Origin: Pseudomonadota bacterium | GTDB lineage: Bacteria > Pseudomonadota > Alphaproteobacteria > GCA-2746255 | NCBI GenBank assembly: GCA_040752895.1 | Contig: JBFMHN010000003.1 | Location: 157,501 to 221,500 of the forward strand | DNA length: 64,000 nt | Direction: 5' to 3' | Shown: positions 1 to 54,203 of the stretch, one piece after another | Numbering within the stretch: position 1 is the first letter of the stretch | How the letters are laid out: each line of letters begins with the position of its first letter | Made by a program: the position numbers and the translations under genes | Notes under the pieces: generated by a model | Told to the model about the DNA's origin: nothing | Seen by the model: only the letters and a program-made list of their open reading frames with translations | Databases searched by the model: none

Positions 1-2312
<2,312 letters not shown>

Positions 2313-2316
<4 letters not shown>

Positions 2317-2819
2317 GGGCGCGTTCCCCCCGTACCCAAGACAAAACGCGCGCGTTCGCGCCGCAGCATCTCGTAGGGGCTGACGCAGGTCAGGCTCAGA
2401 CCGATGCAGGCATTGGGTATCTTGATCTTGCGGGTCGAGTCCGCCGGCACTTCGTGCGTGACGACGGTAAAGCCGTGCGCGAGCGCATGCGCCACCAGCC
2501 AGTAATCGGCGACCTGCAGAAAGGTGGCGATCGCGGCGGGTTCGTATGTCTGCCCGGTCGCCCATGCGCTCACCCGGGCGAGTGCGGGCAGGACCGGATC
2601 GTCCGGTGGCAGAAAGAAGGCACGTCCGCGCACCGTGGCCCAGTCCGAAAGCTCGTCCCCGCCTGCTTGCAGTTCGTCGCCGACCTTCTCGATACTTGCC
2701 ACCTGGCCCACTTGGTTCCGGGACACCAACCAGTCCCAGAAAGCCGGGCAGAAATCGAAGCCGTAATGCAGGTTCTTGGCCTGGATGAAGATGTTGGCAT
2801 CGAGAAGGTAACGGGTCAC
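2313..2819 (-). CDS. DUF4411 family PIN-like protein
   Basis: Protein of 168 residues beginning [20 protein letters not shown], the opening of the DUF4411 family. The early LLDANIFI has the acidic residue expected of a PIN-type nuclease fold; further acidic residues and a VVTHE strand sit in the C-terminal half. DUF4411 genes often follow an XRE-ImmA gene and are treated as toxin-like RNases, though the activity is inferred from the fold. Here it overlaps the upstream XRE-ImmA gene by 4 nt and the downstream hsdR by 4 nt, so the pair is translated as part of the restriction operon. It is probably the toxin or effector half of a module with the metallopeptidase. Confidence 0.8.
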
Positions 2820-3973
2820 GGAATGACCCCCACTTCGCGCCCGATATGGTTGAATGTCTCGGTCCTGGCGACACCGAGCATGCGGAAGGCGTCGCGATAG
2901 AGGGTCTGGCCTTCCAGCGTGCTTTCGACCAAGGCGCGCGCGAAGCGGCGGCTCACCCGCGACAGCGTGGTGCGGTAGAAGTCGCCGCCGCCCATGCCGC
3001 CGCGGGCGGCGATGTCGCGCAGGCGTTCCCGCTCGGCGGCCCAGGCGGCATCGAAGGCAGGCCGATCAAGCCAACCTGCATCGAGCAGGCGGCGCAGGAT
3101 AACCAGTGTGCTGACCTTGAAACGCCGTGCCAGCCTCTGCAGGGTGTCGCTCAGCTCTTCGCCACGGACCAGCTCGGCCCGCAAGGTTGCCAAGGGAACC
3201 AGCAGTTCCGCCGCCACCGCGTTGCACCAGACCTCCTCGCGCCTATGGCCGGCAAGCGGCGCCGCGCCGGCATCGGACAGCGCCGAGGCGCCCAGCCAAA
3301 GATGCGCCAGCTCATGCGCCAGCGTGAACATCTGCGCCGATTTGCTGTCCGCGCCATTGATGAACACCAGCGGCGCGCGCCGGTCGGCCAGCGCGAAGCC
3401 CCGGAATTCTTGCGGGTCGAGCGTGCGGCGGTTGTTGCTCAAGACAACCCCGCTCACCATTACTAGCACGCCTAAGCGGTCGGCCTGCCGGATGAACAGG
3501 CGGAACGCTTCCTCCCAGGTGCGGCACGACGCCCGCGCGTCGAGGTCGAAGCCGAGCGCCGCAGCCATCCGCGCCGCCACTGTTTCTGGCGCGGCGGCCA
3601 GCGTGACGCTGCCGACGAAATCGGCCTCCTTCTGGCGCATTGCCAACGCGAATTCCCGATACCAGCCCTGCCGCTCCTGGCAGGCATAGAGCGTGTCGAG
3701 CAGGTTGGGGCTGGGCCGGAGGACAGCACGGCCCTCCATGGTGCGGAAATCCGGGATGGGAAGCGGTTCATCCGGCGGCTGGGGCAGAAACAGGTAGCCG
3801 ATCGGCACATGCACAGCGCGCGCGAAAGCCTCCAGTTGCTTCAGCGTCGGCTGTGTCTCGCCCGCCTCCCAGGCATCGAGCTTCGCAAAGCGATGCTGAA
3901 GGTCAAACGGCTCCAGCCCGGCACGCATGCGAGCCCAGGTCAGCAGCGCAGGATTGATCTCAACACGCTTCAT
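2816..3973 (-). CDS. XRE-family HTH / ImmA-IrrE metallopeptidase
   Basis: Protein of 385 residues with two parts. The N-terminal ~70 residues look like an XRE helix-turn-helix ([41 protein letters not shown]). The central region carries the ImmA/IrrE zinc-peptidase signature HELAHLWLG near residue 218, with a downstream acidic segment ([15 protein letters not shown]) typical of the third ligand. ImmA/IrrE enzymes cleave repressors or antitoxins. Combined HTH-ImmA proteins next to DUF4411 are a known toxin-antitoxin-like arrangement. It overlaps the Abi gene by 4 nt upstream and DUF4411 by 4 nt downstream. Whether it is antitoxin, stress sensor or operon regulator cannot be told from sequence. 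Confidence 0.88.
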
Positions 3974-4803
3974 CGCCGATCTCCCGCGACGCTGGCAAGC
4001 GCTGCCTTAAGCACCTGAAAGCAGACCTTGGCAGTGTGTTCGTCGGGCGTGAAGCCCGAAACCATCTGCTCGTAAGGATGAATGTAGTTACGGAAATCGC
4101 GCAAACCGTGGCTGAACTTCTTCACGTCGAGCTTTAGAATGCCGACCTCACAGGAGACGTCGATGAACTGTGCGAGACTCCACTCGTGAAAGCGCTTGAC
4201 CGAGCCATCGGCGGCCTTCGGACTCGTTGTTGCGCGATTGAAACGCGCCGGGTCCTTCTGTGCCGCTCCCAGCAGCACGGCTTCAAGAACGCTTCCGCAC
4301 AGAAAAATGACGGAGAGATAGGCCCCGGCCTGCAAAGCCTTCCGCCCCTCGTCAAGACGGCTCTGGATAATCGACACGGCCATTGCTTCGACCGGCAATT
4401 TTTGGACATTAGGGATCGCGAACTCCCGCTCGAGAAACGCATCAACGGTTTCGATGGGAGCGGTGGCCACAGGCTTTCCGGCCAATCGAGCGACGATCGC
4501 CCGGCATTTATCAAGTAACCCGGCGTCGCGCTCTCTTCCATTGAGGTCGCAATCGGCTTGATAGGCATCTAGCAATTCGGAAAGGACGCGCCCTGCAAGC
4601 GCGTCGGACTCCTGCTCCCAGAACGCTCGCACCTTCTTGGCTTTCGACGTGCCGTATTTTTGATATTTTGCGCCGTGGATATCGACTTTGTGCCTAGCGA
4701 AGAACTCACCAAAGGTCGCGTCCGAATAATCGAGCACATACCCGCTCTGCATGCCGAGCAGCTTCTCTAAGTAACGCTTTTCTATGTCTGTAAGGTTACT
4801 CAT
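3970..4803 (-). CDS. Abortive-infection family protein (Abi-C / HEPN-like)
   Basis: Protein of 277 residues. The N-terminus (EKRYLEKLLGMQSGYVLDYSDATFGEFFARH) resembles the AbiJ-type N-terminal domain, which often precedes effector domains. The C-terminal half matches the Abi_C pattern: FLCGSVLEAVLLG, then LRDFRNYIHPYEQ, where R...H spacing is that of a HEPN RNase active site. Such proteins are thought to kill or arrest infected cells. It overlaps hsdS by 4 nt (ATGA) and the XRE-ImmA gene by 4 nt. Its place inside an hsd operon suggests a back-up that acts when restriction fails; that role is inference. Confidence 0.8.
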   Translation of the reverse strand: MSNLTDIEKRYLEKLLGMQSGYVLDYSDATFGEFFARHKVDIHGAKYQKYGTSKAKKVRAFWEQESDALAGRVLSELLDAYQADCDLNGRERDAGLLDKCRAIVARLAGKPVATAPIETVDAFLEREFAIPNVQKLPVEAMAVSIIQSRLDEGRKALQAGAYLSVIFLCGSVLEAVLLGAAQKDPARFNRATTSPKAADGSVKRFHEWSLAQFIDVSCEVGILKLDVKKFSHGLRDFRNYIHPYEQMVSGFTPDEHTAKVCFQVLKAALASVAGDRR

Positions 4804-6188
4804 GCAGCCTCCCCGACGAGTTTGTCGGCTTGGCGCACTCGGACTTCGCCAGACATGAGCTTTGGTAACAGGTAATCCCGCGTAGCAGCTAGGGCTCTGT
4901 TTTCTTTGTCATTCGCGACAATCCGATCAAATAGCGGACGCACTGTTTCATCAAACGCCTTCAGAACAGCGGGTGACGCGACAGTAACCGGTATGGGCCG
5001 GAAGTTAGTCTTGCTGATTTCCTGGAACGTCGAACCATTCGCTTTCTGTAGGATAGTCTCCACGTTCGCCTGGGTCCAAAGCCAAGCGAAGACGTTGGAC
5101 AATCGCTTCCGGCAGACCATGGCAATAAATCCTTGGTTCACAGCTGTCGGTATCTGCGCGATGGCCAAGTAGCCGATAGGAGCCCTGGAGGACAGCAACA
5201 CTGTCCCAACAGGCAGCAAACCTGAGCCAATCTGCGTGAGGCCCTCCGCCGTGATCTGCCGTCCAGTCTGCAGCAAGACGGGCGTGCTCAGAGAGGACAA
5301 ATCCTTCGGTGTCGCCCAAGCGATATCACCGCCCCAGAAGGCGGGTTCTTTTGTGCTAGGCGTAGAGCCACCGACGACATCAACTTCCTGTCCAATGGTC
5401 GAAGTCGCCCACCCCTCCGGCTTGCTGTCGGGGTCGAGGCGAGCGGGGAAGAGGGACCAGAGGTCGGGGGCGAGGTAGGGCGGGCGGCCTTCCATCTTGG
5501 CGCGGGTGGAACCGAAATCGACGAACCAGTCCTTGAAGATCGCCCGCGCCAGCGCCTCCAGCGTCTCGTTCATCCGGCGGTTCAACTCGATCTTGTCATC
5601 GAGCGCACCAAGGACTTCGACAATCGCATCCTGAGACTTTCGATCCGGCATGCAGATGTGAAAAGCCTTGGCCTCAGGGAAGTAGATCGTCTGGTGGACG
5701 CTCCCGACCGCGAAAATCAGAAGGGCTTCGCGCTCAGCAAGCAGAACATACTTCAGGAAATACGGGTTTAGATCCTCTGAACAGATCCAGTTCACGAAGT
5801 CTTGGCTGGTCGACATCGGACGACCCATGACGACGACGTAACCGACGGAGGCCGTTCTAGACAGACAAACAGTGTCCTTCGGCAGAACGCGAGCCGAGGA
5901 ATTTTCAATCCCAAGTTCGTTCGTGTATTCAATTGTCTCTTGAATGACGCGGCCATGATTTCCTGTCGCGTCACGAATGCCGATCCACGGGATCGAGCCG
6001 CCCCAGTATTCCGGATGCCGTCTGCTTGGTGTATGACCGGATTCAAGTCTTGCGACCGACGACAGCGGCGTCCAACGCCATCCTTCTGGTGCCGGCAAAT
6101 TAGGTAGCCCAACAGACAGCGCGTAGCGCCCCGGAATCACGGCGGCAGTGGCGTCGCGTCCACCGGTTATGGTTTGCGCACGCGCCAT
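4800..6188 (-). CDS. hsdS: Type I restriction-modification S (specificity) subunit
   Basis: DNA-recognition subunit (462 residues) that directs HsdM and HsdR to a bipartite target. The two target-recognition domains each open with the usual signature: WRWTPLSSVARLESGHTPSRR...YWGGSIPW near residue 38 and WATSTIGQEVDVVGGSTPSTKEP...WGGDIAW near residue 260. Each domain is followed by a helical spacer (LDDKIELNRRMNETLEALA; FDETVRPLFDRIVANDKENRALAATRDYLLPKLMSGEV). It shares a TGATG stop/start overlap with hsdM and overlaps the Abi gene downstream. Base composition drops within the target-recognition domains compared with hsdM, as is common for S subunits. The recognition sequence cannot be read from this. 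Confidence 0.93.
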   Translation of the reverse strand: MARAQTITGGRDATAAVIPGRYALSVGLPNLPAPEGWRWTPLSSVARLESGHTPSRRHPEYWGGSIPWIGIRDATGNHGRVIQETIEYTNELGIENSSARVLPKDTVCLSRTASVGYVVVMGRPMSTSQDFVNWICSEDLNPYFLKYVLLAEREALLIFAVGSVHQTIYFPEAKAFHICMPDRKSQDAIVEVLGALDDKIELNRRMNETLEALARAIFKDWFVDFGSTRAKMEGRPPYLAPDLWSLFPARLDPDSKPEGWATSTIGQEVDVVGGSTPSTKEPAFWGGDIAWATPKDLSSLSTPVLLQTGRQITAEGLTQIGSGLLPVGTVLLSSRAPIGYLAIAQIPTAVNQGFIAMVCRKRLSNVFAWLWTQANVETILQKANGSTFQEISKTNFRPIPVTVASPAVLKAFDETVRPLFDRIVANDKENRALAATRDYLLPKLMSGEVRVRQADKLVGEAA

Positions 6189-7807
6189 CAGCCCGTCACT
6201 CTCTGAAGGTTTTGGAGAATGCGGGCAGAGAGAACTTCTGCTTCGCCAAACTGACTGCGGAGCTTGTCTGTCAGCTCTGCGAGGCGATCCGCGAAAAGTC
6301 CGTCAAACTCGCTGAATTCGGCCGATCCAACGTACCGTCCTGGTGTCAGGACATGAGCCTGCTGCCTTACTTCTTCAAGTGTCGCTGCCTTGCAGAACCC
6401 CGGCACGTCTTCATAAGCACCCGCTTCAGTTTCAGCTCGCCAGGCATGATAGGCGCGCGTGATCTTCGCGATATCGGTGTCGGAGAATTCCTTGCGCGTG
6501 CGATCCACCATGTGGCCTAGCTTGCGCGCGTCGATGAACAGCACCTCGCCGCGCCGGTCGCGCAGCTTCGCATCGCGCGCGATGCCGTTCGACTTGTCGC
6601 GCGCCAGAAACCACAGGCAGGCCGGAATCTGGGTCGAATAGAAAAGCTGCCCCGGCAGCGCCACCATGCAGTCCACCGCGTCGGCCTCGACCATGGCGCG
6701 GCGGATCGCGTCCTCGCCCGACTGGGCCGAGGACATCGAGCCGTTGGCCAGCACCACGCCCGCCGTGCCGGCAGGCGCCAGGTGCCACCAGATGTGCTGG
6801 AGCCAGGCATAGTTGGCATTGCCCACGGGCGGCGCGCCGAACACCCAGCGGGCATCCTCGCGCAGCCGCTCGCCGCCCCAGTCCGAGATGTTGAAGGGCG
6901 GATTGGCGAGGATGTAATCGAAGCGCAGGTCCTTGAGTTCGTCCTTGTGGAAGCTGCCCTCGTTGTTCCAGCGGATGTCGGCGTCGATGCCGCGCACCGC
7001 GAGGTTCATCTTGGCCAGCCGCCAGGTGGTGTAGTTGCTTTCCTGCCCGTAGATGGCGATGTCGCCGATCCGCCCGCCGTGGCTTTCGACGAACTTCTCG
7101 GACTGAACGAACATGCCACCCGAGCCGCAGCAGGGATCGTAGACGCGGCCCTTGAAGGGCTCCAGCATCTCGACCAGTACGCGCACGACCGAGCGCGGGG
7201 TATAGAATTCGCCGCCGCGCTTGCCTTCGGACCCGGCGAAGCCGCCCAGAAAATATTCGTAGACGCGGCCCAATATGTCCTTGGCCTTGTCGCCCGGCTC
7301 GCCAAGGCCGATGCCCGAGATCAGGTCGATCAGCTCGCCCAGCATCACCTTGTCGAGGGCGGGGCGGTTGTAGTCCTTGGGCAGCACGCCCTTGAGGCCG
7401 GGGTTGTGCGCCTCGATCGACCCCATGGCGTCGTCGATCAGCTTACCGATCGTGGGCTGGCGGGCATTAGCTTGCAGGTGCGACCAGCGGGCCTCCTTCG
7501 GCACCCAGAAGACGTTCTCGGCCAGGTATTCGTCGGGGTCCTCGGCGGCGGCGGGCTCCTCGGCGAGCAGGGCCGCGTGCTTGGCCTCGAAGGCGTTCGA
7601 AATGTACTTAAGGAAGATCAGCCCGAGCGCAACATGCTTGTAATCGGACGGCTCCAGATTCTTGCGCAGCTTGTCGGCGGCCAGGAACATCTGCGCCTCG
7701 AAGCCCAGGTTGGCGCCGTTGCCGTTGGCCTTCGGGGTCTTGGCCGGCTTGGCGGCCTTTGCGGCCGGCGCGCCAGCGGCGAATTTTTTCGCGTGTCCAC
7801 GGGCCAT
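6188..7807 (-). CDS. hsdM: Type I restriction-modification M (N6-adenine methyltransferase) subunit
   Basis: Methyltransferase of 539 residues that modifies adenine in the target recognised by HsdS. After a lysine/alanine-rich N-terminal tail (about 30 residues) comes the HsdM N-terminal helical domain ([27 protein letters not shown]). The N6-adenine methyltransferase core follows, with SAM-binding motif I ([11 protein letters not shown]) near residue 223 and catalytic motif IV NPPF ([14 protein letters not shown]) near residue 302. It starts 20 nt after the ribbon-helix-helix gene and runs directly into hsdS (TGATG), so it is the first enzyme gene of the operon. Confidence 0.96.
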
Positions 7808-44130: not shown

Positions 44131-44296
44131 TCCTTGTCTGCACATCATTATTTATAGAGACGGGTGCTGTGCCCATGGAGACTGTTTCTTGTAACTCGTT
44201 GATTTACAGCATGGCGATGGAGACGCCTTGCGATCGACGCGAGAGCGTTGCTTCCTCGTGTTCGTGGACACCATGGATCGTCCGTGAGGCGTGGTC

Positions 44297-46285
44297 ATGA
44301 CGCAGGACGACGACTTCAAGCCGAAGCTTGGGAAGATACGGTCCCAGGGCAGCAAACGCGGGCGCAAGTATCTGCACCAGATACTGCAGGCGACCGCGCT
44401 GGCCGGCGGACGCGTGCGCGGCGGTTGGTCACCCCGTCGCAGCGCCTTCCACGGCAGCCAGATCGGTCGCGGCGCCAGCATTGGCCGCATGCTCGCCACG
44501 CGCGATCGTTATGCGTCGTTCCGGAGCCGCCGTGTCGTCGTCAAATCCCGCATTGTCAAGCTCGCCGGCAACGGCATCAAGGGCGCACGGGCGCATCTGC
44601 GGTATATCCAGCGCGATGGCGTGACCCGCGACGGCCACCCGGGCGAGCTCTATTCGGCCGAGCAGGATCGCGCTGACGGCAAGGCGTTCATCGAGCGCTC
44701 GACAGGCGACCGCCACCAGTTCCGCTTCATTGTCGCGCCCGAGGATGGCGCCGAATACGACGACCTGAGGCCGTTCGTCCGCCGCCTGATGACGCAGATG
44801 GAGGAGGACCTCGGCACAAGGCTCGAATGGGTCGCGGTCGATCACTACAACACCGGCCATCCGCACAGCCACATCATCCTCTGCGGCAAGGACGACCGGG
44901 GCCGGGACCTGGTCATTGCCCGCGAGTACATCACAAAGGGGCTGCGCGAGCGCGCCGCCGAACTGGTCACGCTGGACCTCGGGCCGCGCTCCGATCTGGA
45001 GATCGAGAACCGCCTGCGCAACGAAGTCGAACAGGAGCGGCTTACCAGTATCGACCGGCGCCTGCTGCGCGACCGGGATGGGGAAGGGCTGGTCTGGTCC
45101 ACCGACAGGGATGCGTTACAGCAAACCTTGCGGGCCGGCCGCCTGCAGAAACTGAAACATCTGGGACTGGCCGAGGCAGTGCGGCCGGGCCAGTGGCGTC
45201 TGGCGGACGACCTCGAGGAGACGCTCAAGCGCATGGGCGAGCGCGGCGACATCATCAAGACGATGCAGCGCGAGATGACAGCGAAAGCTCTGGTGCGTGC
45301 GGCCGCCGATTACGTGATCTTCGACCCGGCCGCGAAAGAGATCCGCCCGATCACGGGCCGGGTGGTCGCACGAGGTCTGTCCGACGAGATCAACGACCGT
45401 CATTACTTGATCGTCGACGCTCTCGACGGTCGCGCCCACTATGTCGACATCGGCAAGGGGGAAGGGACTGAGCCCACGCCCGAAGGCGCCATCGTGCGCA
45501 TCGAGCCGAAGCGCCCCGAGCCCCGGCAGGTCGATCGCACGGTGTCCGAAATCGCGGCTGCCAATGGTGGACGGTATGACGTCGATATCCACCTCCGTCA
45601 CGACCCGTCCGCCAACGCCGGTTTTGCAGAAACCCATGTGCGCCGGCTGGAGGCGATCCGCCGCGTCACCGGCGGCGTCGAGCGCGAGCCCGATGGAACC
45701 TGGGTGATCGCCCCCGACCATCTGGAGCGGGTGGCGGCGTTCGAGCGCCGCCAGGCACAGGCCTCGCCCGTGGTTGTGCGAACGCTGTCGTCGTTGCCGC
45801 TGGAACGTCAGGTCGGCGCCGATGGCGCGACTTGGCTCGACCGCGAGCTTGTCGCGGAGACTCCGGAACCCGTGCGCGACGAGGGCTTCGGGCGGGACGT
45901 GCGCGAGGCACAGTCGCGTCGACGGCAATGGTTGATCGCGGCAGGTCTGGCGCAGGAGGACCAGGACCGGATCGTCTATCGCGCCAACATGCTCGGCATC
46001 TTGCGTCGGTGCGAACTGAACCGCGCCGTCGGGCAGCTATCGGGCGAACTGGGGCTGAATTATGTCGAGACCAAGTCGGGAGAGAAGGTCGAAGGCATCT
46101 ATCGCCGGCACATCGATCTCGCCAGCGGCCGCTTCGCCGTCATCGAGAAAGCTCGCGAGTTCACGCTGGTGCCGTGGCGGCCCGTGCTGGAGCGCAATTT
46201 GGGCAAGCTGGTCTCCGGCATCGTGCGCGGCGACAGCATCTCCTGGACCATCGGGCGGCAGCGGAGCGGGCCGTCAGTGTCGTAG
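44297..46285 (+). CDS. traI: MOBP-type relaxase (TraI/VirD2-like, DUF3363)
   Basis: Relaxase of 662 residues that nicks oriT and pilots the strand. The N-terminal relaxase domain has RIVKLAGNGIKGARAHLRYIQRDGV, FRFIVAPEDGAEYDDLRPFVRRLM and the metal-binding HYNTGHPHSHIIL (His178, His180, His182). The rest is the long DUF3363 region. The ATG at 44297 is used; a GTG 6 nt upstream is also open. The 3' 180 nt are duplicated at 48163-48341. It is separated from traG by 5.9 kb of defence cargo; in related elements these genes are close together. Confidence 0.92.
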   Translation: MTQDDDFKPKLGKIRSQGSKRGRKYLHQILQATALAGGRVRGGWSPRRSAFHGSQIGRGASIGRMLATRDRYASFRSRRVVVKSRIVKLAGNGIKGARAHLRYIQRDGVTRDGHPGELYSAEQDRADGKAFIERSTGDRHQFRFIVAPEDGAEYDDLRPFVRRLMTQMEEDLGTRLEWVAVDHYNTGHPHSHIILCGKDDRGRDLVIAREYITKGLRERAAELVTLDLGPRSDLEIENRLRNEVEQERLTSIDRRLLRDRDGEGLVWSTDRDALQQTLRAGRLQKLKHLGLAEAVRPGQWRLADDLEETLKRMGERGDIIKTMQREMTAKALVRAAADYVIFDPAAKEIRPITGRVVARGLSDEINDRHYLIVDALDGRAHYVDIGKGEGTEPTPEGAIVRIEPKRPEPRQVDRTVSEIAAANGGRYDVDIHLRHDPSANAGFAETHVRRLEAIRRVTGGVEREPDGTWVIAPDHLERVAAFERRQAQASPVVVRTLSSLPLERQVGADGATWLDRELVAETPEPVRDEGFGRDVREAQSRRRQWLIAAGLAQEDQDRIVYRANMLGILRRCELNRAVGQLSGELGLNYVETKSGEKVEGIYRRHIDLASGRFAVIEKAREFTLVPWRPVLERNLGKLVSGIVRGDSISWTIGRQRSGPSVS

Positions 46286-46381
46286 AGCGCTGATTGGCCA
46301 CGAAACTCGCCCATAGAAGGACTGTTGGCTATACTCGCGCAAACGGAGGTCGTTTCTCAATACGAGCGCTGCAGGTCATAT

Positions 46382-48052
46382 ATGACCAAAAGTCGGTCTT
46401 TTTCGATTTACCTGCTCAAAGAGAGCTTCGACGCGTCGAGCGCCCTTGAGGACGATCATGCCCTGGCCTCGGATGTCGAAGCTGCTAACCTTCCCGAGGG
46501 CGCGTCGATCTTCATACTGGACGGCGAACCGCGAGCACCATGGTGGCGTTCTTATTTCGGGATCGGGATAAATTTGACTCAGGCTCACAAGGGCGCACTG
46601 GTCTTCCTGCCTCTCGGCACGCGCTGCTTCGCGCTTTCCTTTGGTCATGTCGCCCACAACCTGAAAGACGCCAGCTACGAGTATGACTTCGGCCTTCGCG
46701 TAACGCTGAACAGTCTCGATCCTCAGAAGCTGAAAAGTACGGATACTCTCGATCCCGGTGTCGCCAAACGGCAGCGCACACAACTGCCGATCGAATCCGA
46801 ACTGACATTCTTCGATTTCGACCGGGACAGCACGATTCTGCGTAGCCTTACCGGCAAAGTGAGGGAGGAACACAAGGATCTGTTTCGTCACGCAACCGGC
46901 AGCAGCAATCTGCGTATCAGCACCGATGTTGCCGCCGAGGGGCTTGAGGCACTTTGCACGGCGGTCCTTGCTCTCTATGAGAGCGAGGACTACAAGACGG
47001 CGTTTCCCGAAATTCAGAACATCGTTCCTGTTCGCGATCCTGGAGGGATCGCCGCTCTGAACGCCAATCTTCTTGTGGCCTTCCGGGAGCGGAACCCGGA
47101 CCTCAACATAACGGTCCCGGAGATCATCAATTATAGCGACAACCTTTACGTCATGTTCGTAGGGGCAGGTCGGAGCCTCATCTACGACGATGTCTATATC
47201 GGCCGGTACTATGAATACCTGGATACGAACGAGATCGACTTTGCGGCCATCGACATTGACACGTTGAAACGTCATAAGCTCTTGCTGACTGACGAGGACG
47301 GGAATGGCCGCGACCGTCACAGCATCTTCAAGAGCCTTGTCTTCGATACCACCCTGCCCGGAGTTGCTGGTGAAACCTACCACCTCTGCGAAGGAGGGTG
47401 GTATCGGATCGACAACGACTATATTGCCCGCTTGCAGACCTATCTCGATCCACTCTGCGCCGTGAATGACCTTCCGCCCTATGATCACGCCAGTGAAGGT
47501 GCTTACAATCAGGCGGTCGCCGCGGGTGATGCTGCCGTCATCTGCCTCGATAGAAAGGACATCAGTCCGGCCGGGCACACACAAGTGGAGCCGTGCGACC
47601 TGCTGGCATCGCGGGGTGACACAGCCGTCTTCTATCATGTGAAAGTCTCGACGCTGTCAGCGCAGCTGAGCCACCTGTTCAACCAGGGAGTCAACGCGGT
47701 CGAGTTGATACGGCTTGAGCCTCAGGCCATCGACCGGCTCGAGGCCCTTATCCGAGAGGCGCTAGTTGAGGGCGATCCGGACCCGCTTGTGGCATTGATC
47801 CGGAATCGGCACTACCGCATCGTCTTCGGCATTGTTACGCGCAAAGATCCGGCAGGCCGCTCGCTGAATCTGCCGCTATTCTCACGTATCAGCCTCATGC
47901 GCAGCATGAAAACGCTTCAGTTGATGGATGTGCCCGCCACGGTCATGTTCGTCACCGATCAGACAGCCACTGCGGAGGGCCGAAAGAAGAAGCGGAAGAA
48001 GAAGGCTGAGGTTGTCGCCGGGGAGGAAGTGCCAGCCGATGCTGCGGAGTGA
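46382..48052 (+). CDS. DUF6119 / TIGR04141 sporadically distributed protein
   Basis: Protein of 556 residues from the ATG at 46382 (GCAGGT 7 nt upstream; a TTG 57 nt earlier is less likely). The opening SFSIYLLKESFDASSALED and FGIGINLTQAHKGALVFLPLGTRCFALSFGHVAHNL, and the central FFDFDRDSTILRSLTGKV, match the TIGR04141/DUF6119 family. That family occurs sporadically in mobile and defence islands; its activity is unknown. A basic/acidic tail (AEGRKKKRKKKAEVVAGEE) ends the protein. It is alone on its segment, and the flanking relaxase-end duplication shows it was inserted here. Confidence 0.82.
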   Translation: MTKSRSFSIYLLKESFDASSALEDDHALASDVEAANLPEGASIFILDGEPRAPWWRSYFGIGINLTQAHKGALVFLPLGTRCFALSFGHVAHNLKDASYEYDFGLRVTLNSLDPQKLKSTDTLDPGVAKRQRTQLPIESELTFFDFDRDSTILRSLTGKVREEHKDLFRHATGSSNLRISTDVAAEGLEALCTAVLALYESEDYKTAFPEIQNIVPVRDPGGIAALNANLLVAFRERNPDLNITVPEIINYSDNLYVMFVGAGRSLIYDDVYIGRYYEYLDTNEIDFAAIDIDTLKRHKLLLTDEDGNGRDRHSIFKSLVFDTTLPGVAGETYHLCEGGWYRIDNDYIARLQTYLDPLCAVNDLPPYDHASEGAYNQAVAAGDAAVICLDRKDISPAGHTQVEPCDLLASRGDTAVFYHVKVSTLSAQLSHLFNQGVNAVELIRLEPQAIDRLEALIREALVEGDPDPLVALIRNRHYRIVFGIVTRKDPAGRSLNLPLFSRISLMRSMKTLQLMDVPATVMFVTDQTATAEGRKKKRKKKAEVVAGEEVPADAAE

Positions 48053-48162
48053 CCGAGGCCTTGATGTGTATGGTAAATTAGAGGAACTGGCGATTCGAGG
48101 TTGATCGAGCATCGACGATCAAAGGAACGAGGGGCGCTCAGGGACCGCCGAATATAGTTTGA

Positions 48163-48345
48163 CGGCTTCTACCGCCGGCACGTTGATCTAGCGAGTGGCC
48201 GGTTCGCCGTCATTGAGAAAGCCCGCGAGTTCACGCTGGCGCCGTGGCGGCCGGTGCTAGATCGCCATCTCGGCAAGCAGATCTCCGGCATCGCGCGGCG
48301 ACAGCATCTCCTGGACCATCGGGCGGCAGCGGAGCGGGCCATCGG
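48163..48345 (+). pseudogene. Duplicated 3' end of a relaxase gene
   Basis: This segment reads GFYRRHVDLASGRFAVIEKAREFTLAPWRPVLDRHLGKQISGIAR. It matches the relaxase end (IYRRHIDLASGRFAVIEKAREFTLVPWRPVLERNLGKLVSGIVR, 46094-46273) at DNA level with scattered differences and one missing base. It is diverged, so it derives from a related element's relaxase rather than a fresh duplication. Confidence 0.8.
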
Positions 48346-48376
48346 TGACCTAATTAGCAGTTGTTACGGCCATTAT

Positions 48377-48414
48377 GACCTGCTATCTTGTTGTTAACAA
48401 CAAGATAGCAGGTC
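48377..48414. promoter_or_regulatory. 38-bp perfect palindrome, likely operator
   Basis: GACCTGCTATCTTGTTGTT (48377-48395) is followed directly by its exact reverse complement (48396-48414), with the centre GTTAAC. It ends 4 nt before the GTG start of the HTH gene. Length, perfection and position suggest an autoregulatory operator; a transcript crossing it would also form a strong hairpin at the ribosome-binding site. Confidence 0.75.
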
Positions 48415-48418
48415 AGCG

Positions 48419-48907
48419 GTGGCAGTTCACTACACTCCCGGTCAACTCCGTGGTGCGATGACAATCCCACAGGAGACCTATCGTCATTGGAAGAAGGCCT
48501 TGGCTCCCCTGCGTCGGGGGACAGGGCATAGTCCCTGTTTTACAGCGGGCGATTTACTCAGCGTTGCAATCGTGCGTGTTCTGACCGTTGATCTCGCTGT
48601 CCGGGTCGGTGCACTTTCAGCTATTGCTGAAGCTCTCTTCGAAGCGTGCAACGCCACCTCCTGGCCAACTCTGGAACGTAGCAAGCTGATTGTCGATCTA
48701 GCGACTGGCCGCCTTCAAATCAGGCCAGAGCTTGAGAACGTCGTTTCCGAGACGCCCGTGATCACCATCCCCTTGCGGCCATTGGTGAGTCACCTGCGAG
48801 GTGCGCTTCTGACCGACGGCGAAGTCGATAACCAGGAGACACTCCGCTTTCCGCCAACCCCGCTACCCTCGAAGACCGAAGCGGTATCGACGGGAGGCCG
48901 ATCGTGA
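48419..48907 (+). CDS. MerR-like HTH regulator of the methyltransferase-PIN cassette
   Basis: Protein of 162 residues. The GTG at 48419 is preferred because it retains HYTPGQLRGAMTIPQETYRHWKKAL, a MerR-like helix-turn-helix opening. The middle (GHSPCFTAGDLLSVAIVRVLTVDLAVRVGALSAIAEALFEACN) is an all-helical dimerisation region. The start abuts the 38-bp palindrome, and the stop overlaps the methyltransferase start by 4 nt (GTGA). It is most simply a repressor of its own three-gene operon. Confidence 0.78.
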   Translation: MAVHYTPGQLRGAMTIPQETYRHWKKALAPLRRGTGHSPCFTAGDLLSVAIVRVLTVDLAVRVGALSAIAEALFEACNATSWPTLERSKLIVDLATGRLQIRPELENVVSETPVITIPLRPLVSHLRGALLTDGEVDNQETLRFPPTPLPSKTEAVSTGGRS

Positions 48908-51396
48908 ACGCCGTCGACATCATCGCCAAGGCCGCGCGATCCACGGGCTATCGGGACGAAGCGATCGTCCGCGACTATGCCTTCGTCGATGTTCTCGATC
49001 CGGCGGACACGACGCGAACAGTCTCGCTCGCCGCCTTTACACAAACGCCCCCGTCCTACCGGTCGGCCGCACTCGCTGCTGTTTCGGTGGGAGACGGCGA
49101 TACGCTGGAGTTGGTCAAGGTGCACCGCGCGCTCGGCGCGCCGCTGCTGTTTGTCATCGAAGGCGATCAGGTTTCGCTCTGGCAGGTTCGCGGTGATGCT
49201 CCGCCGCGCGTGCTTGAACGATTGCCGGTTAACGACCTACCGGCGTTGTTCGAGCGACATCGGGAAACCTGGCGCCCGGATGCTATTCACCGCGCGAAAT
49301 CGATCGGCGCCATCGACCGGAGCTACCAACTCGATTTTGTCGATCTCGGTTTGCTGCCTGCCATCGAGGGTGAAATCCATCTCAAACTCGACCGTCTTTT
49401 GGTTGACACGCTTACGGCTGCATCCGCCGCCCAACGCGGCAAGGCCCCCGAAACAAGGCTGCTGTTTCGCGTCGTATTTCGCTTGCTTGCCGCGAAGGTC
49501 TTGCAGGATCGCCAGCACCCCTATGCTCAAGGCTGGGACGCTGCCGATCTCGCCTCCGTTCTCCGTGCCATCGAATCTTACTATTCCCTGGCGTCCGTTC
49601 CGATCAGTAGCCGCCAGAAAGTGCCGCCTGCGTTTTCGGCCGCCTGGGAATGTTTGCGTGGCGGTATCAGCTTCGCCAATATTTCATCGGACGATCTAGC
49701 CTTCGTTTATGAGAATACCCTCGTTACCCCCGAAGCCCGGAAGCATTTTGGCACGCACAGCACACCGCGTCAGCTTGCCGAATATGCCGTCGCCCGATTG
49801 GAGCTTCATCGCTACAAGCCGAATGAACTAAGCGTCTATGAACCCTTCGCCGGCGCTGGCGCGTTTCTCGTTTCCGCCCTGCGGCATATGCGCGACTTGC
49901 TGCCGATCGATTGGAGCGACCAGCAGCGCCATGACTTTCTGGTCGGGCATCTCGCGGGCGACGAAATCGACCCCTTTGCCTGCGAGGTCGCGACGCTCTC
50001 CCTGATTCTGGCTGATTACCCGAATCAGAACGGCTGGCACATTGCCGAAGCTGACCTCTTCGAGGACGGGGTCCTGCAAGACCGCATCAAGGGGCGCAAT
50101 GTCGTCCTCTGCAATCCGCCTTTCGAAGCCTTTACCGCCAAGGAACGATCACGCTATCCGATCGCGAGCGAGTTTTACTCCAAACCCGTGGCGGTGCTGA
50201 ACGCTGCGCTTGATGTACATCCACTCGCGCTCGCCTTCGTCTTACCACGTCCCTTCATTTTGGACCGGCAATTCGCGGAACAACGGCGGAAGATCGAGAA
50301 GCTCTATGGCGATGTTGAACTAGTCGAATTGCCCGATCGCATCTTTGGCGCGTCCGTTATCGAATCGGCGCTCCTGATCGCTCGCGAGCCAAGGCCACCG
50401 GCTCCAGCCGTCATCAACTTGCGGTCGACCGAAGTGTCTGACCGTGATCGTGTCATTTTCCTGAAAACTGGGAAAACGACGACGGAACGCAATGTCGTGC
50501 GTGAGGTTGGCGATCCGCCCTCGGGAGAACTTTGGGTCCCGCCGTTGCAGGCAGTCTGGGATTATCTACAAGCGTCACCGCGACTGGAGCGTCACTTCAC
50601 TATCCATCGCGGGATTGAATGGAAGTCGGCGCAAGACTCGGCTTGGGGCACTCACCGTCGCGCTGGCTACAGACGGGGACTGCACACCGCCCGGGGGGCG
50701 CGACAGTTTATGTTGCCGAATCCAGTATGGCTGGACTGCCGGGGAGAAAGACTTCGAGCTAGGGCAATCGACTTGCCATGGGACCGTCCGAAGCTGGTTG
50801 TAAACGCGGGGCGCCTAAGCCGCGGACCATGGCGTATCGCGGCGATGCTCGACAAGGAAGGGCTGCTATGCTCGCAGCAATTCTTTGGACTGTGGCCGCA
50901 TGAGTCTTTTACTGACACGCAGCTTCTGACCTTCGCGGCGATTCTGAATGGGCCGGTTGCAAATGCTTTTCTCGCGGTCCATTCCCCCGCAAAGGGTATT
51001 CGAATCTCTGCCGTTGAGCAGAGTCCTGTTCCATCGGTGCTTCCATTTCATGTAGGGGAACTGGTGGCGGAGTATGTTCGGCAAATTACGGAGCCAAGAG
51101 CGTTAAATCCGGACGAGGAGCGACTGGAGGCGCTTCTTACGCAAATCGATGCAGCGGTGCTTGGTGCCTATGATCTGCCGCCACGACTGGAACGCCAGCT
51201 TCTGGAATATTTCAGTGGCGTTGATCGTCCTGTTGCGCATCCGTGGCGGCATTGGGACGTCAGCGACCCGACGCCCGGTTTGACACTGGCTGAGCGCGTG
51301 TCCAGGCGTTTTCATCCGCACGGCTCCTGGATTCAGAAAGTGTTCCAGCCATTGCCGAACGGGGAAGCCATGCTCCTGCGTACTTATGGAGCATGA
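48904..51396 (+). CDS. Large adenine-specific DNA methyltransferase (Eco57I/type IIG-like)
   Basis: Protein of 830 residues. The N-terminal ~280 residues may be nuclease-like or helical. The methyltransferase core has HSTPRQLAEYAV (start of the N6-MTase fold), SAM motif I YEPFAGAGAF (~313) and motif IV LCNPPFEAF (~403). The C-terminal half (LWVPPLQAVWDYL; HRGIEWKSAQD; LNGPVANAFLAVHSPAKGIRISAVEQSPVP) resembles the target-recognition part of single-chain enzymes. No clear PD-(D/E)xK was found at the N-terminus. The GTG start overlaps the HTH gene. With the PIN gene 6 nt downstream it forms a compact cassette. Confidence 0.82.
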   Translation: MNAVDIIAKAARSTGYRDEAIVRDYAFVDVLDPADTTRTVSLAAFTQTPPSYRSAALAAVSVGDGDTLELVKVHRALGAPLLFVIEGDQVSLWQVRGDAPPRVLERLPVNDLPALFERHRETWRPDAIHRAKSIGAIDRSYQLDFVDLGLLPAIEGEIHLKLDRLLVDTLTAASAAQRGKAPETRLLFRVVFRLLAAKVLQDRQHPYAQGWDAADLASVLRAIESYYSLASVPISSRQKVPPAFSAAWECLRGGISFANISSDDLAFVYENTLVTPEARKHFGTHSTPRQLAEYAVARLELHRYKPNELSVYEPFAGAGAFLVSALRHMRDLLPIDWSDQQRHDFLVGHLAGDEIDPFACEVATLSLILADYPNQNGWHIAEADLFEDGVLQDRIKGRNVVLCNPPFEAFTAKERSRYPIASEFYSKPVAVLNAALDVHPLALAFVLPRPFILDRQFAEQRRKIEKLYGDVELVELPDRIFGASVIESALLIAREPRPPAPAVINLRSTEVSDRDRVIFLKTGKTTTERNVVREVGDPPSGELWVPPLQAVWDYLQASPRLERHFTIHRGIEWKSAQDSAWGTHRRAGYRRGLHTARGARQFMLPNPVWLDCRGERLRARAIDLPWDRPKLVVNAGRLSRGPWRIAAMLDKEGLLCSQQFFGLWPHESFTDTQLLTFAAILNGPVANAFLAVHSPAKGIRISAVEQSPVPSVLPFHVGELVAEYVRQITEPRALNPDEERLEALLTQIDAAVLGAYDLPPRLERQLLEYFSGVDRPVAHPWRHWDVSDPTPGLTLAERVSRRFHPHGSWIQKVFQPLPNGEAMLLRTYGA

Positions 51397-51402
51397 TCGG
51401 CC

Positions 51403-51906
51403 GTGGACGGATACATTCTTGACACCTCCGTCTTATCGGCTCACCTCGACCCTTCACACCACTGGCACAGCGATGTGCGGGCGGCGATCGAGGCACTGGA
51501 TCAAGACTCGGCGCAGTTCGTCTCCGCGATGTCCTTGGCGGAACTCACCTTCGGTGTGCGGATGGCCGAGGCTTTCGGCGGAGCTTCTCTGCCGGCCCTT
51601 CAGCAGATGCTGATAGAGGCTCGTGCGTATGCAGTGCTGGACGTGACCCATCATACCTCGGCGGCTTATGCCGAACTGAAGACCAATCTCGCCAAGCGGT
51701 ATTTGGCCAAGGCGAGCCGTCGAGATCGGCCGCGCTGGCTGGAAGAATGGGTGGATAAGACAAGTGGACAGAAACTCCAGGTCGATGAGAACGACGTGTG
51801 GATGTGCGCGCAGGGGAAGGAGCGCGACCTCATTCTCGTCACGGCTGATGGTCGCATGAGGCGGATTGCTGATGCAGATCCCGAGATCCGGCTGCTCATC
51901 CTATGA
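51403..51906 (+). CDS. PIN-domain nuclease, third gene of the methyltransferase cassette
   Basis: Protein of 167 residues. PIN acidic residues are in YILDTSVLSAH (first Asp), FVSAMSLAELTFGVRM (Glu), and ENDVWMCAQGKERDLILVTADGRM (two further Asp). Such proteins cleave RNA, often as toxins. It starts with GTG 6 nt after the methyltransferase stop, so the two are co-translated. No separate antitoxin gene is seen; the HTH protein or the methyltransferase may restrain it. This is inference. Confidence 0.85.
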   Translation: MDGYILDTSVLSAHLDPSHHWHSDVRAAIEALDQDSAQFVSAMSLAELTFGVRMAEAFGGASLPALQQMLIEARAYAVLDVTHHTSAAYAELKTNLAKRYLAKASRRDRPRWLEEWVDKTSGQKLQVDENDVWMCAQGKERDLILVTADGRMRRIADADPEIRLLIL

Positions 51907-52163: not shown

Positions 52164-54203
52164 ATGACCCCGACCAAGCTCCTTATCGGCCCGATCCTGA
52201 TCGTTTTCGCGATCGTGATCGCGGGCGTCTGGGCGTCGACGCAATGGACCGCCGCCGAGCTTGGCTATCAGGCGCAATTGGGCACGCCCTGGTTTATGTT
52301 GACCGGACTCCCGGTCTATTACCCCTGGCGTTTGTTTGAATGGTGGTACGCCTATGAGGCCTACGCCCCGCGCATCTTCGACCGGGCGGGAATGCTGGCC
52401 GGCGCCAGCGGCTTCATGGGGTGCGCTGCGGCGGTTATCGGCTCGCTGTGGCGGGCACGCCAGAACCGGCTCGTCACCACCTACGGCTCGTCGCGTTGGG
52501 CGAACAAGCGCGAGATCGATGCGGCCGGACTCTTCCGGGCCGCCGGCGTTTTCCTCGGCCGCCTCGGCGGTCAGTATCTGCGCCATGACGGTCCCGAGCA
52601 TGTCATGGCCTTCGCGCCGACGCGCTCGGGCAAGGGCGTCGGCCTCGTCATTCCCACGCTTCTCTCCTGGACCGGGTCGGCGGTCGTTCATGACATCAAG
52701 GGCGAGAACTGGCAACTGACCGCCGGCTGGCGGTCACGTTTCTCGCACTGCCTGCTGTTCAATCCGACCGATCCGCGTTCGGCCCGCTACAACCCGCTTC
52801 TGGAAGTGCGCAAGGGATCGGACGAGGTTCGCGACGTCCAGAACATCGCCGACATTTTAGTCGACCCGGAAGGCGCGCTGGAACGCCGCAGCCACTGGGA
52901 GAAGACCAGCCACTCGCTGTTGGTCGGCGCCATCCTGCATGTGCTCTACGCCGAGGAAGAGAAGACACTCGCCCGCGTCGCTACCTTCCTCTCCGATCCG
53001 CAGCGCTCCTTCGCCCACACGTTGCGCCGGATGATGGCGACCAATCATCTCGGCACGCCGGATCATCCGCGGGTTCATCCTGTCGTCGCTTCGGCCGCGC
53101 GCGAGGTGCTGAACAAGTCCGAGAACGAACGCTCGGGCGTGCTCTCCACCGCCATGTCGTTTCTCGGCCTCTATCGCGATCCGACCGTGGCGGCGACGAC
53201 GGCGGCCTGCGACTGGCGCATCGTCGATCTGGTCGATGCGGCGCGGCCGGTCTCGCTCTATCTCGTCATTCCGCCGTCGGACATCTCGCGGACCAAACCG
53301 CTGGTGCGGCTGGTGTTGAACCAGATCGGCCGCAGGCTGACCGAGCGGCTGGAGGGCGATCCCGGCAAGCGCCGTAAGCACCAGCTCCTGATGATGCTGG
53401 ACGAGTTTCCCGCGCTCGGGCGGCTCGACTTTTTCGAGACCGCGCTCGCCTTCATGGCCGGCTATGGCATCCGCGCCTACCTGATCGCCCAATCCCTCAA
53501 TCAGATATCCAAAGCCTACGGCGAGAACAACGCCATCCTCGACAATTGCCATGTTCGCATCGCCTTCAGCAGCAATGACGAACGGACGGCGAAGCGGATT
53601 TCCGACGCGCTCGGCACGGCGACCGAGCTGCGTGCCCAGCGCAACTATGCTGGCCATCGTCTGGCGCCGTGGCTCTCCCACGTCATGGTCAGCCGGCAGG
53701 AGACCGCCCGCCCGCTGCTGACACCGGGCGAGGTGATGCAATTGCCGCCAGCCGACGAACTGGTGCTGGTCTCCGGCCTGGCGCCGATCCGGGCGAAGAA
53801 GCTCCGCTATTACGAAGACCGCAACTTTACATCGCGCGTGGCGGACGCACCGGTGCTGGCCGATGTCGTCTATCACGACAAGCCGGCGTCTCGGCCGGAT
53901 GACTGGAGCGGCCAGGTGCGCGGCCTTCATATCCGCCTCGCCGCCGTGGTCGATGAGGAAGGCGGCCTTGCCGAAGAAGAGGGCGGGCTCCAGCAGCAAC
54001 GCCATCCTGGTCTGCCGGAAGAGGGTGTCACCAAGCCAGCCGCCGCCGAGCACGAAACCGATCTTGGCCTGGCCGACGACGAATCCGACACGGCCGCCGA
54101 CAAGCGCGCCATGGATCGACTGCGTGGTCTCGGCTCGGTCGCGCGCGCCCACGCCATGAACGAGGGCACGGGTCGCGGCGACGACCTGCTGCCGTCCTTC
54201 TGA
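52164..54203 (+). CDS. traG: TraG/VirD4-type coupling protein
   Basis: Type IV coupling protein of 679 residues that brings the relaxase-DNA complex to the channel. Two N-terminal membrane segments (LLIGPILIVFAIVIAGVWAST; GMLAGASGFMGCAAAVIGSLW) precede GSSRWANKREIDAAG. Walker A is APTRSGKGVGLVIPTLL (~150) and Walker B MLDEFPALGRLDFFE (~410). A C-terminal acidic tail (EEGGLAEEEGG...) ends the protein. GGGAGACAGCAA gives its start. It begins the trb transfer operon. Confidence 0.95.
   Translation: MTPTKLLIGPILIVFAIVIAGVWASTQWTAAELGYQAQLGTPWFMLTGLPVYYPWRLFEWWYAYEAYAPRIFDRAGMLAGASGFMGCAAAVIGSLWRARQNRLVTTYGSSRWANKREIDAAGLFRAAGVFLGRLGGQYLRHDGPEHVMAFAPTRSGKGVGLVIPTLLSWTGSAVVHDIKGENWQLTAGWRSRFSHCLLFNPTDPRSARYNPLLEVRKGSDEVRDVQNIADILVDPEGALERRSHWEKTSHSLLVGAILHVLYAEEEKTLARVATFLSDPQRSFAHTLRRMMATNHLGTPDHPRVHPVVASAAREVLNKSENERSGVLSTAMSFLGLYRDPTVAATTAACDWRIVDLVDAARPVSLYLVIPPSDISRTKPLVRLVLNQIGRRLTERLEGDPGKRRKHQLLMMLDEFPALGRLDFFETALAFMAGYGIRAYLIAQSLNQISKAYGENNAILDNCHVRIAFSSNDERTAKRISDALGTATELRAQRNYAGHRLAPWLSHVMVSRQETARPLLTPGEVMQLPPADELVLVSGLAPIRAKKLRYYEDRNFTSRVADAPVLADVVYHDKPASRPDDWSGQVRGLHIRLAAVVDEEGGLAEEEGGLQQQRHPGLPEEGVTKPAAAEHETDLGLADDESDTAADKRAMDRLRGLGSVARAHAMNEGTGRGDDLLPSF

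Follow-up and report, generated by a model that had tools for sequence, protein, structure and literature searches.

A candidate toxin-antitoxin cassette with a DNA adenine methyltransferase as its proposed antitoxin, carried by an alphaproteobacterial conjugative element

Introduction

What is a DNA methyltransferase doing between a small regulator gene and a toxin gene? The question is raised by a cassette in a 64,000-nucleotide (nt) stretch of alphaproteobacterial DNA (Pseudomonadota bacterium, assembly GCA_040752895.1, contig JBFMHN010000003.1, positions 157,501 to 221,500; this whole stretch is hereafter the window, in whose coordinates positions are given), in which a palindrome, a helix-turn-helix (HTH) gene, an N6-adenine DNA methyltransferase (MTase) gene, and a PIN gene follow one another in that order. 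An earlier sequence-only reading of the window had proposed an undescribed defence system in which the MTase marks self or holds the PIN protein inactive. The comparative analysis described herein makes it reasonably likely that the cassette is a toxin-antitoxin (TA) module in which a sequence-specific DNA adenine MTase acts as the antitoxin.

Architecture and conservation of the cassette

The three genes, all on the plus strand, are closely spaced: the HTH open reading frame (ORF; 48419-48907, 162 amino acids) opens with a GTG start codon 3 nt past the end of the palindrome and overlaps the MTase ORF (48904-51396, 830 amino acids) by 4 nt (GTGA), and the PIN ORF (51403-51906, 167 amino acids) begins 6 nt after the MTase stop codon. 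The MTase matched the Pfam families N6_Mtase (E 2.7e-10) and MmeI_Mtase (E 1.9e-7), and its AlphaFold2 (AF2) model (predicted local distance difference test, pLDDT, 86.8) gave as top Foldseek matches the type IIG enzymes DrdV and BpuSI, both full-length, together with M.BseCI, CamA, and BrxX. Across 32 MTases the catalytic motif NPPF (residues 404-407, 50113-50124) is invariant, as are E313, P314, and G317 of the S-adenosylmethionine-binding motif EPFAGAG (residues 313-319, 49840-49860). The third ORF matched Pfam PIN (E 1.1e-11); its product, a predicted RNase toxin with FitB as the nearest solved PIN structure, carries a catalytic quartet (D7, E47, D131, and D149) that is invariant in 27 PINs. 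The sequence-only description of an Eco57I/type IIG-like MTase overlapping the regulator, with a PIN nuclease 6 nt behind it, is upheld by these coordinates and matches.

Relatives were gathered by a plasmid search and then by scanning about 85,000 genomes with aligned MTases, which gave 28 further loci; the readable set of 33 includes the window and two divergent members, L080 and L081, while L032 is truncated and L039 is an apparent duplicate of L017. A toxin gene lies directly 3' of the MTase gene in all 33 cassettes with readable downstream DNA, encoding a PIN protein in 30 (one of them frameshifted) and a RES protein, a toxin that degrades nicotinamide adenine dinucleotide (NAD), in the remaining 3. 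The order HTH-MTase-PIN recurs on plasmids of Agrobacterium tumefaciens and Sinorhizobium chiapasense, and HTH-MTase-RES occurs in Rhizobium sp. Q54. An HTH homologue was found 5' of the MTase gene by phmmer in 28 of the 33 and by profile in L081; the distant members L037 and L038 have a MerR-like ORF at that position, none was detected in L080, and L028 stops at a contig edge. None of the 33 has a restriction subunit or a separate antitoxin gene in the interval from MTase to toxin, in agreement with what had been read from the window alone.

The cassette occurs in Alpha-, Beta-, and Gammaproteobacteria and in two metagenome-assembled genomes (MAGs) of Acidobacteriota, and because the gene order is kept throughout, chance does not account for the arrangement: HTH-MTase-toxin is, with near certainty, a conserved unit, and the co-occurrence check proposed with the sequence-only reading comes out in its favour. 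All three genes are under purifying selection, with nonsynonymous-to-synonymous rate ratios (dN/dS) in close pairs of 0.06-0.14 for the MTase, 0.02-0.10 for PIN, and 0.05-0.21 for the HTH gene. The notion of a PIN-specific system has to be given up, however: the toxin is exchangeable, and the unit is better described as HTH, MTase/antitoxin, and either PIN or RES toxin.

Identity of the antitoxin

The exchange of toxins offers a view of which protein restrains them. In a tree of the MTase core, the MTases paired with RES group together in one clade (support 100/100) that falls within the diversity of the PIN-bearing ones, so the toxin has been exchanged, once in this sample. The RES-bearing MTases are about 945 amino acids long, with a C-terminal extension of about 140 amino acids whose likeness to Xre/MbcA/ParS antitoxins was first predicted from sequence and then tested. 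The Xre-MbcA-ParS middle and toxin-binding domains of Pfam were found in all three, at E values of 1e-4 to 2e-2 that fall below Pfam's own cut-offs. A tblastn search with one of these MTases (L036) hit 178 plasmid records, nearly all solely at residues ~800-946, many of which are annotated as stand-alone antitoxins, and the four inspected all lie directly upstream of a RES toxin. In blastp comparisons, the MTase segments and stand-alone antitoxins are 33-37% identical over 126-160 amino acids (E 1e-20 to 1e-25) and score 78-94 bits, whereas 200 shuffles gave no more than 22.7; identity between the RES toxins is 41-48%. A model of the RES-branch C-terminus, built from a two-sequence alignment, reached pLDDT 70 with no significant Foldseek matches, and its profile matched no chain in the Protein Data Bank (PDB). 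Judged by homology, the MTase very probably serves as antitoxin in the RES branch.

The window itself falls in the PIN branch, where the candidate antitoxin segment is the MTase C-terminal tail (residues 771-830, 51214-51393), which is proposed to bind PIN. Its conserved pattern, approximately G.W....F.P.P..E...LR, is recognisable in the very divergent L037, L038, L080, and L081 and is absent from the RES-bearing MTases, in which the region beyond residue ~770 is replaced. Descent of this tail from Phd/VapB antitoxin tails was considered and found unsupported in stand-alone PIN loci, tail-profile and tblastn searches, and Pfam. On the grounds of parsimony and toxin-specific conservation of the tail, the MTase is likely the antitoxin here as well. 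That relatives with a swapped toxin carry the matching antidote fused to the enzyme points to the MTase itself as what very probably holds the toxin off; the fused antitoxin of RES-branch MTases speaks strongly for the earlier suggestion that the MTase keeps PIN inactive, which for PIN itself is an inference.

One locus bears on the direction of this dependence. In Rhizobium leguminosarum Vaf-46 (L030:8482-8993), a 1-nt deletion, possibly an assembly error, frameshifts the PIN gene, and the MTase gene beside it is intact; a broken toxin with an intact MTase is the direction that is viable for a toxin-antitoxin pair.

Operator and regulator

The palindrome had been reported as 38 base pairs (bp) long and perfect; it is perfect but measures 40 bp (48376-48415, no strand; left half TGACCTGCTATCTTGTTGTT, right half AACAACAAGATAGCAGGTCA), the longest perfect one in the window, with the next at 18 bp, and it appears to be an operator overlapping a promoter. 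A sigma70-like promoter is predicted on the plus strand at 48361-48389, with a -35 box TTGTTA (48361-48366), a 17-nt spacer, and a -10 box TATCTT (48384-48389). The palindrome core, ATCTTGTTG-N4-CAACAAGAT (48385-48406), recurs in relatives, with 14-18 of 18 positions matched in 23 of 31 loci as compared with shuffle maxima of 11-14, and in most of them it overlies a TATCTT or CATCTT -10 box, usually with a TTG-type -35 box 17 nt upstream. The window palindrome is unusual only in its extension to 40 perfect bases. Four members (L031, L036, L037, and L038) have different palindromes at the operator position; those of the distant betaproteobacterial members are long and unrelated (L037:5400-5438 and L038:5426-5454).

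Taken together, the palindrome is most likely an autoregulatory operator, with predicted binding by the HTH protein or by a complex containing it. The HTH protein itself is probably MerR-like and a candidate autorepressor; the MerR-like label was reached again from sequence, although no Pfam family was matched and a profile search of the PDB returned nothing useful. A regulator gene adjoining an operator over its own promoter nevertheless lends support to the earlier idea that the regulator limits dosage.

Proposed mechanism and alternative explanations

The cassette is predicted to work as follows. A single promoter would drive the HTH, MTase, and toxin genes as one tightly packed operon, and the HTH protein or an HTH/MTase complex, seated on the palindrome over the -10 box, would repress it, thereby limiting dosage and permitting a burst of MTase after transfer. 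The C-terminal segment of the MTase would bind and neutralise the toxin, by homology in the RES branch and by extension in the PIN branch, and the same enzyme, as the proposed DNA-recognising subunit, would methylate target sites of the resident genome set by its exchangeable recognition domain. Loss or degradation of the MTase, its inhibition by an anti-MTase factor from a phage, or a shift in its state on meeting unmodified DNA from an invader would free the PIN RNase, which could halt translation, such that infection is aborted or loss of the element is punished. As PIN is a relative of VapC and FitB, tRNA or rRNA is probably its target, and RNA cleavage with growth arrest may be expected.

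These steps are not equally secure. That the main role is defence rather than pure addiction is favoured, if modestly. That release of the toxin depends on the methylation state of DNA is a serious possibility, to which we attach somewhat less than an even chance. Most tentative is the full proposal of an immune TA class, in which a modification-reading MTase would silence an exchangeable RNA- or NAD-attacking toxin on methylated self and unmethylated foreign sites would release it, so that methylation-based discrimination of self from non-self ends in abortive infection rather than DNA cutting; we would call this possible, though less likely than not.

The main rival, unlikely but well short of negligible, is that the cassette is a plasmid or integrative and conjugative element (ICE) addiction module, in which MTase-antitoxin and stable toxin retain a conjugative element by post-segregational killing, with methylation secondary and no sensing of phage. 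The setting suits such a role, as the cassette is cargo within a conjugative element, lying between a DUF3363-domain relaxase gene (44291-46285) and a type IV secretion system (T4SS) coupling-protein gene (52164-54203), and relatives in Agrobacterium, Sinorhizobium, and Rhizobium are plasmid-borne; such a role is also consistent with ordinary type II TA biology and with the finding of no relatives in phage records and IMG/VR. Some members are chromosomal, however (e.g., L026), and addiction has no need of an 830-residue sequence-specific MTase kept under purifying selection with an exchangeable recognition domain. The exchange is best seen in two Sphingobium cassettes, L014 and L015, whose MTases are 94-97% identical in the N-terminal and catalytic regions and 69% identical in the target-recognition region (approximately residues 541-680, 50524-50943), and whose PIN genes are nearly identical (dN 0.013). 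Their synonymous divergence (dS) is 0.35 over residues 1-400, saturated over 541-680, and 0.77 in the tail, a pattern that indicates exchange of the recognition domain by recombination, not relaxed selection. Such exchange with the toxin partner retained is expected of a self/non-self marker and is needless for a plain addiction module.

Despite these arguments, several observations weigh against a defensive module with the MTase as antitoxin. The cassette is rare, with 2 carriers among 385 genomes of the class and 3 among 399 in a sample of the phylum (the window's own included), and its neighbours elsewhere are a mixture of mobile-element, defence, and ordinary genes. For the PIN branch, examination of stand-alone PIN loci and searches by tail profile, tblastn, and Pfam turned up no free-standing antitoxin similar to the MTase tail. 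Lastly, the HTH protein could be the real antitoxin of PIN, with the MTase an inserted passenger, given that MerR-like HTH proteins are paired with PIN toxins in the literature (PMC2701414, Makarova 2009) and that HTH and PIN share an operon in the window. This arrangement is improbable: a homologous HTH gene is kept when the toxin is RES, the part that changes with the toxin is the C-terminus of the MTase, and the MTase always lies between the two.

An MTase that also cuts unmodified DNA, as a type IIG restriction enzyme with PIN as an accessory, is a very improbable reading. It draws on the full-length structural matches to DrdV and BpuSI and on residues 1-130 (48904-49293), in which the AF2 model places helices and strands in a PD-(D/E)XK-like order. 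Within this region, however, 32 homologues have no conserved D..ExK and no conserved lysine, acidic columns reaching 80% number only three, the conserved stretch is instead QTPPSYRSAA, and no nuclease family was matched in Pfam. As modelled within the whole MTase, the N-terminal domain would be a degenerate or non-nuclease one, and the stipulation of the sequence-only reading that no N-terminal nuclease should by itself explain restriction agrees with the missing nuclease residues. Finally, an orphan epigenetic MTase that lies beside a toxin gene by accident, to which the fold similarity to orphan MTase CamA might point, has a negligible chance of being correct, contradicted as it is by the 33 of 33 co-occurrence, the two toxin families, and the fused RES antitoxin.

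Genomic setting

The host genome assembly measures 2.29 Mb. Beyond the T4SS coupling-protein gene, the conjugative element continues with TrbE/L/I-like genes. Upstream, a second, diverged version of the 3' end of the relaxase gene (48156-48352, plus strand; 84-93% match to 46086-46284) sits between a DUF6119 gene and the palindrome and marks a cargo insertion site beside or downstream of the relaxase gene. The DUF6119/TIGR04141 "sporadically distributed" protein (46325-48052, E 1.6e-137) is neighbouring cargo that occupies the interval from the relaxase gene to this scar and is flanked by the two relaxase 3'-end duplicates; a literature search for TIGR04141 gave no paper. The duplication suggests recombination with a related element at the cargo site.

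At the far end of the window (1-7807, minus strand) lies a type I restriction-modification (RM) operon with HsdM (6188-7807) and HsdS (4800-6188), followed by an uncharacterised ORF (3970-4803), an IrrE/M78-peptidase protein (2816-3973), and a PIN-like DUF4411 protein (2313-2819). The last two form a second RM-linked, PIN-containing TA-like pair in the window, placed within an hsd locus as prrC is.

In other genomes, a Shedu (SduA) defence gene stands just 3' of the cassette on Agrobacterium tumefaciens pAtA74a_a (L008:11178-11993), and MmeI-type RM, Fic, MADS-like, and PD-T4-6-like genes and integrases occur beside other members; the defence-type neighbourhood is suggestive only.

Comparison with known systems

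The nearest working analogy is PrrC, which EcoprrI, a type Ic enzyme linked to it, keeps silent and which is freed when phage T4 Stp disturbs EcoprrI (PMC2610378, PMC12707154). A translation-stopping RNase restrained by a linked DNA-modification enzyme would be the logic proposed here for the cassette. EcoprrI, however, is a three-subunit restricting enzyme and PrrC an ABC-ATPase-linked anticodon nuclease rather than a PIN or RES protein, neither toxin exchange nor a fused antitoxin domain occurs there, and the cassette contains neither an HsdR/M/S type Ic enzyme nor an ABC-type anticodon nuclease. Xre/MbcA/ParS-RES pairs share with RES-branch cassettes the toxin and a homologous antitoxin segment, but their antitoxin is a stand-alone protein of ~225-240 amino acids rather than the C-terminus of an MTase, and most cassettes carry PIN. 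VapBC, FitAB, and MerR-PIN pairs resemble the cassette in their PIN toxin with its invariant D-E-D-D quartet, in FitB as nearest structure, and in an autoregulatory-looking operator. Canonical VapBC/FitAB loci have a small DNA-binding antitoxin directly upstream of the toxin, where all cassette members have the large MTase, and the cassette HTH protein differs from that of MerR-PIN pairs in not being PIN-specific and in being separated from the toxin by the MTase.

Among MTases, those of type IIG (DrdV, BpuSI), MmeI, and BrxX/PglX have the same MTase and recognition-domain fold, whereas the cassette MTase lacks a nuclease active site and the effector role falls to a separate toxin aimed at RNA or NAD. 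The BREX/Pgl partners PglZ and BrxC were found neither within nor adjoining the cassette, and the BrxX match is one of fold only. In the Pgl system of Streptomyces, PglX is the toxic component, unlike the cassette MTase, which is the proposed antitoxin. The title of reference 21 in PMC12839542 presents Pgl as a TA system centred on a DNA methyltransferase. The window MTase scored 15.4 bits against the NCBIfam model of the MADS MAD2 methyltransferase, for which the equivalog cut-off is 720. Set against C-protein-controlled RM systems, defined by an HTH controller with an operator over the promoter, the cassette has a predicted operator overlapping the -10 box, to which the HTH protein may bind, and no restriction endonuclease.

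PADLOC-DB offered no model for the PIN family (two marginal matches, from 1 of 27 members) and generic matches alone for the MTase. In a 2026 survey of BREX-related systems, PIN RNases come up only as infrequent accessory effectors (PMC12839542), and the two PIN systems from DefensePredictor have partners that differ from those of the cassette (PMC13092281). A search of the open-access literature, with subscription papers and preprints outside its scope, returned no description of the cassette, the nearest topics being TA, BREX, and RM. The earlier impression that the combination is not a named system therefore holds for PADLOC-DB 2023, NCBIfam 2026, and open-access papers, within which the cassette is undescribed; this is not proof of novelty.

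Significance

What would be new is a variation on toxin-antitoxin logic, with a methyltransferase as the proposed antitoxin. Self-marking by restriction-modification and growth arrest by toxin-antitoxin systems, which are usually treated apart, would be united in one protein. Given that toxin and matching antitoxin segment appear to have been swapped together, a testable rule follows, namely that the C-terminus of the MTase sets which toxin is restrained and its recognition domain sets which DNA is read. If it is true that release depends on methylation state, unmodified DNA would be acted upon without being cut.

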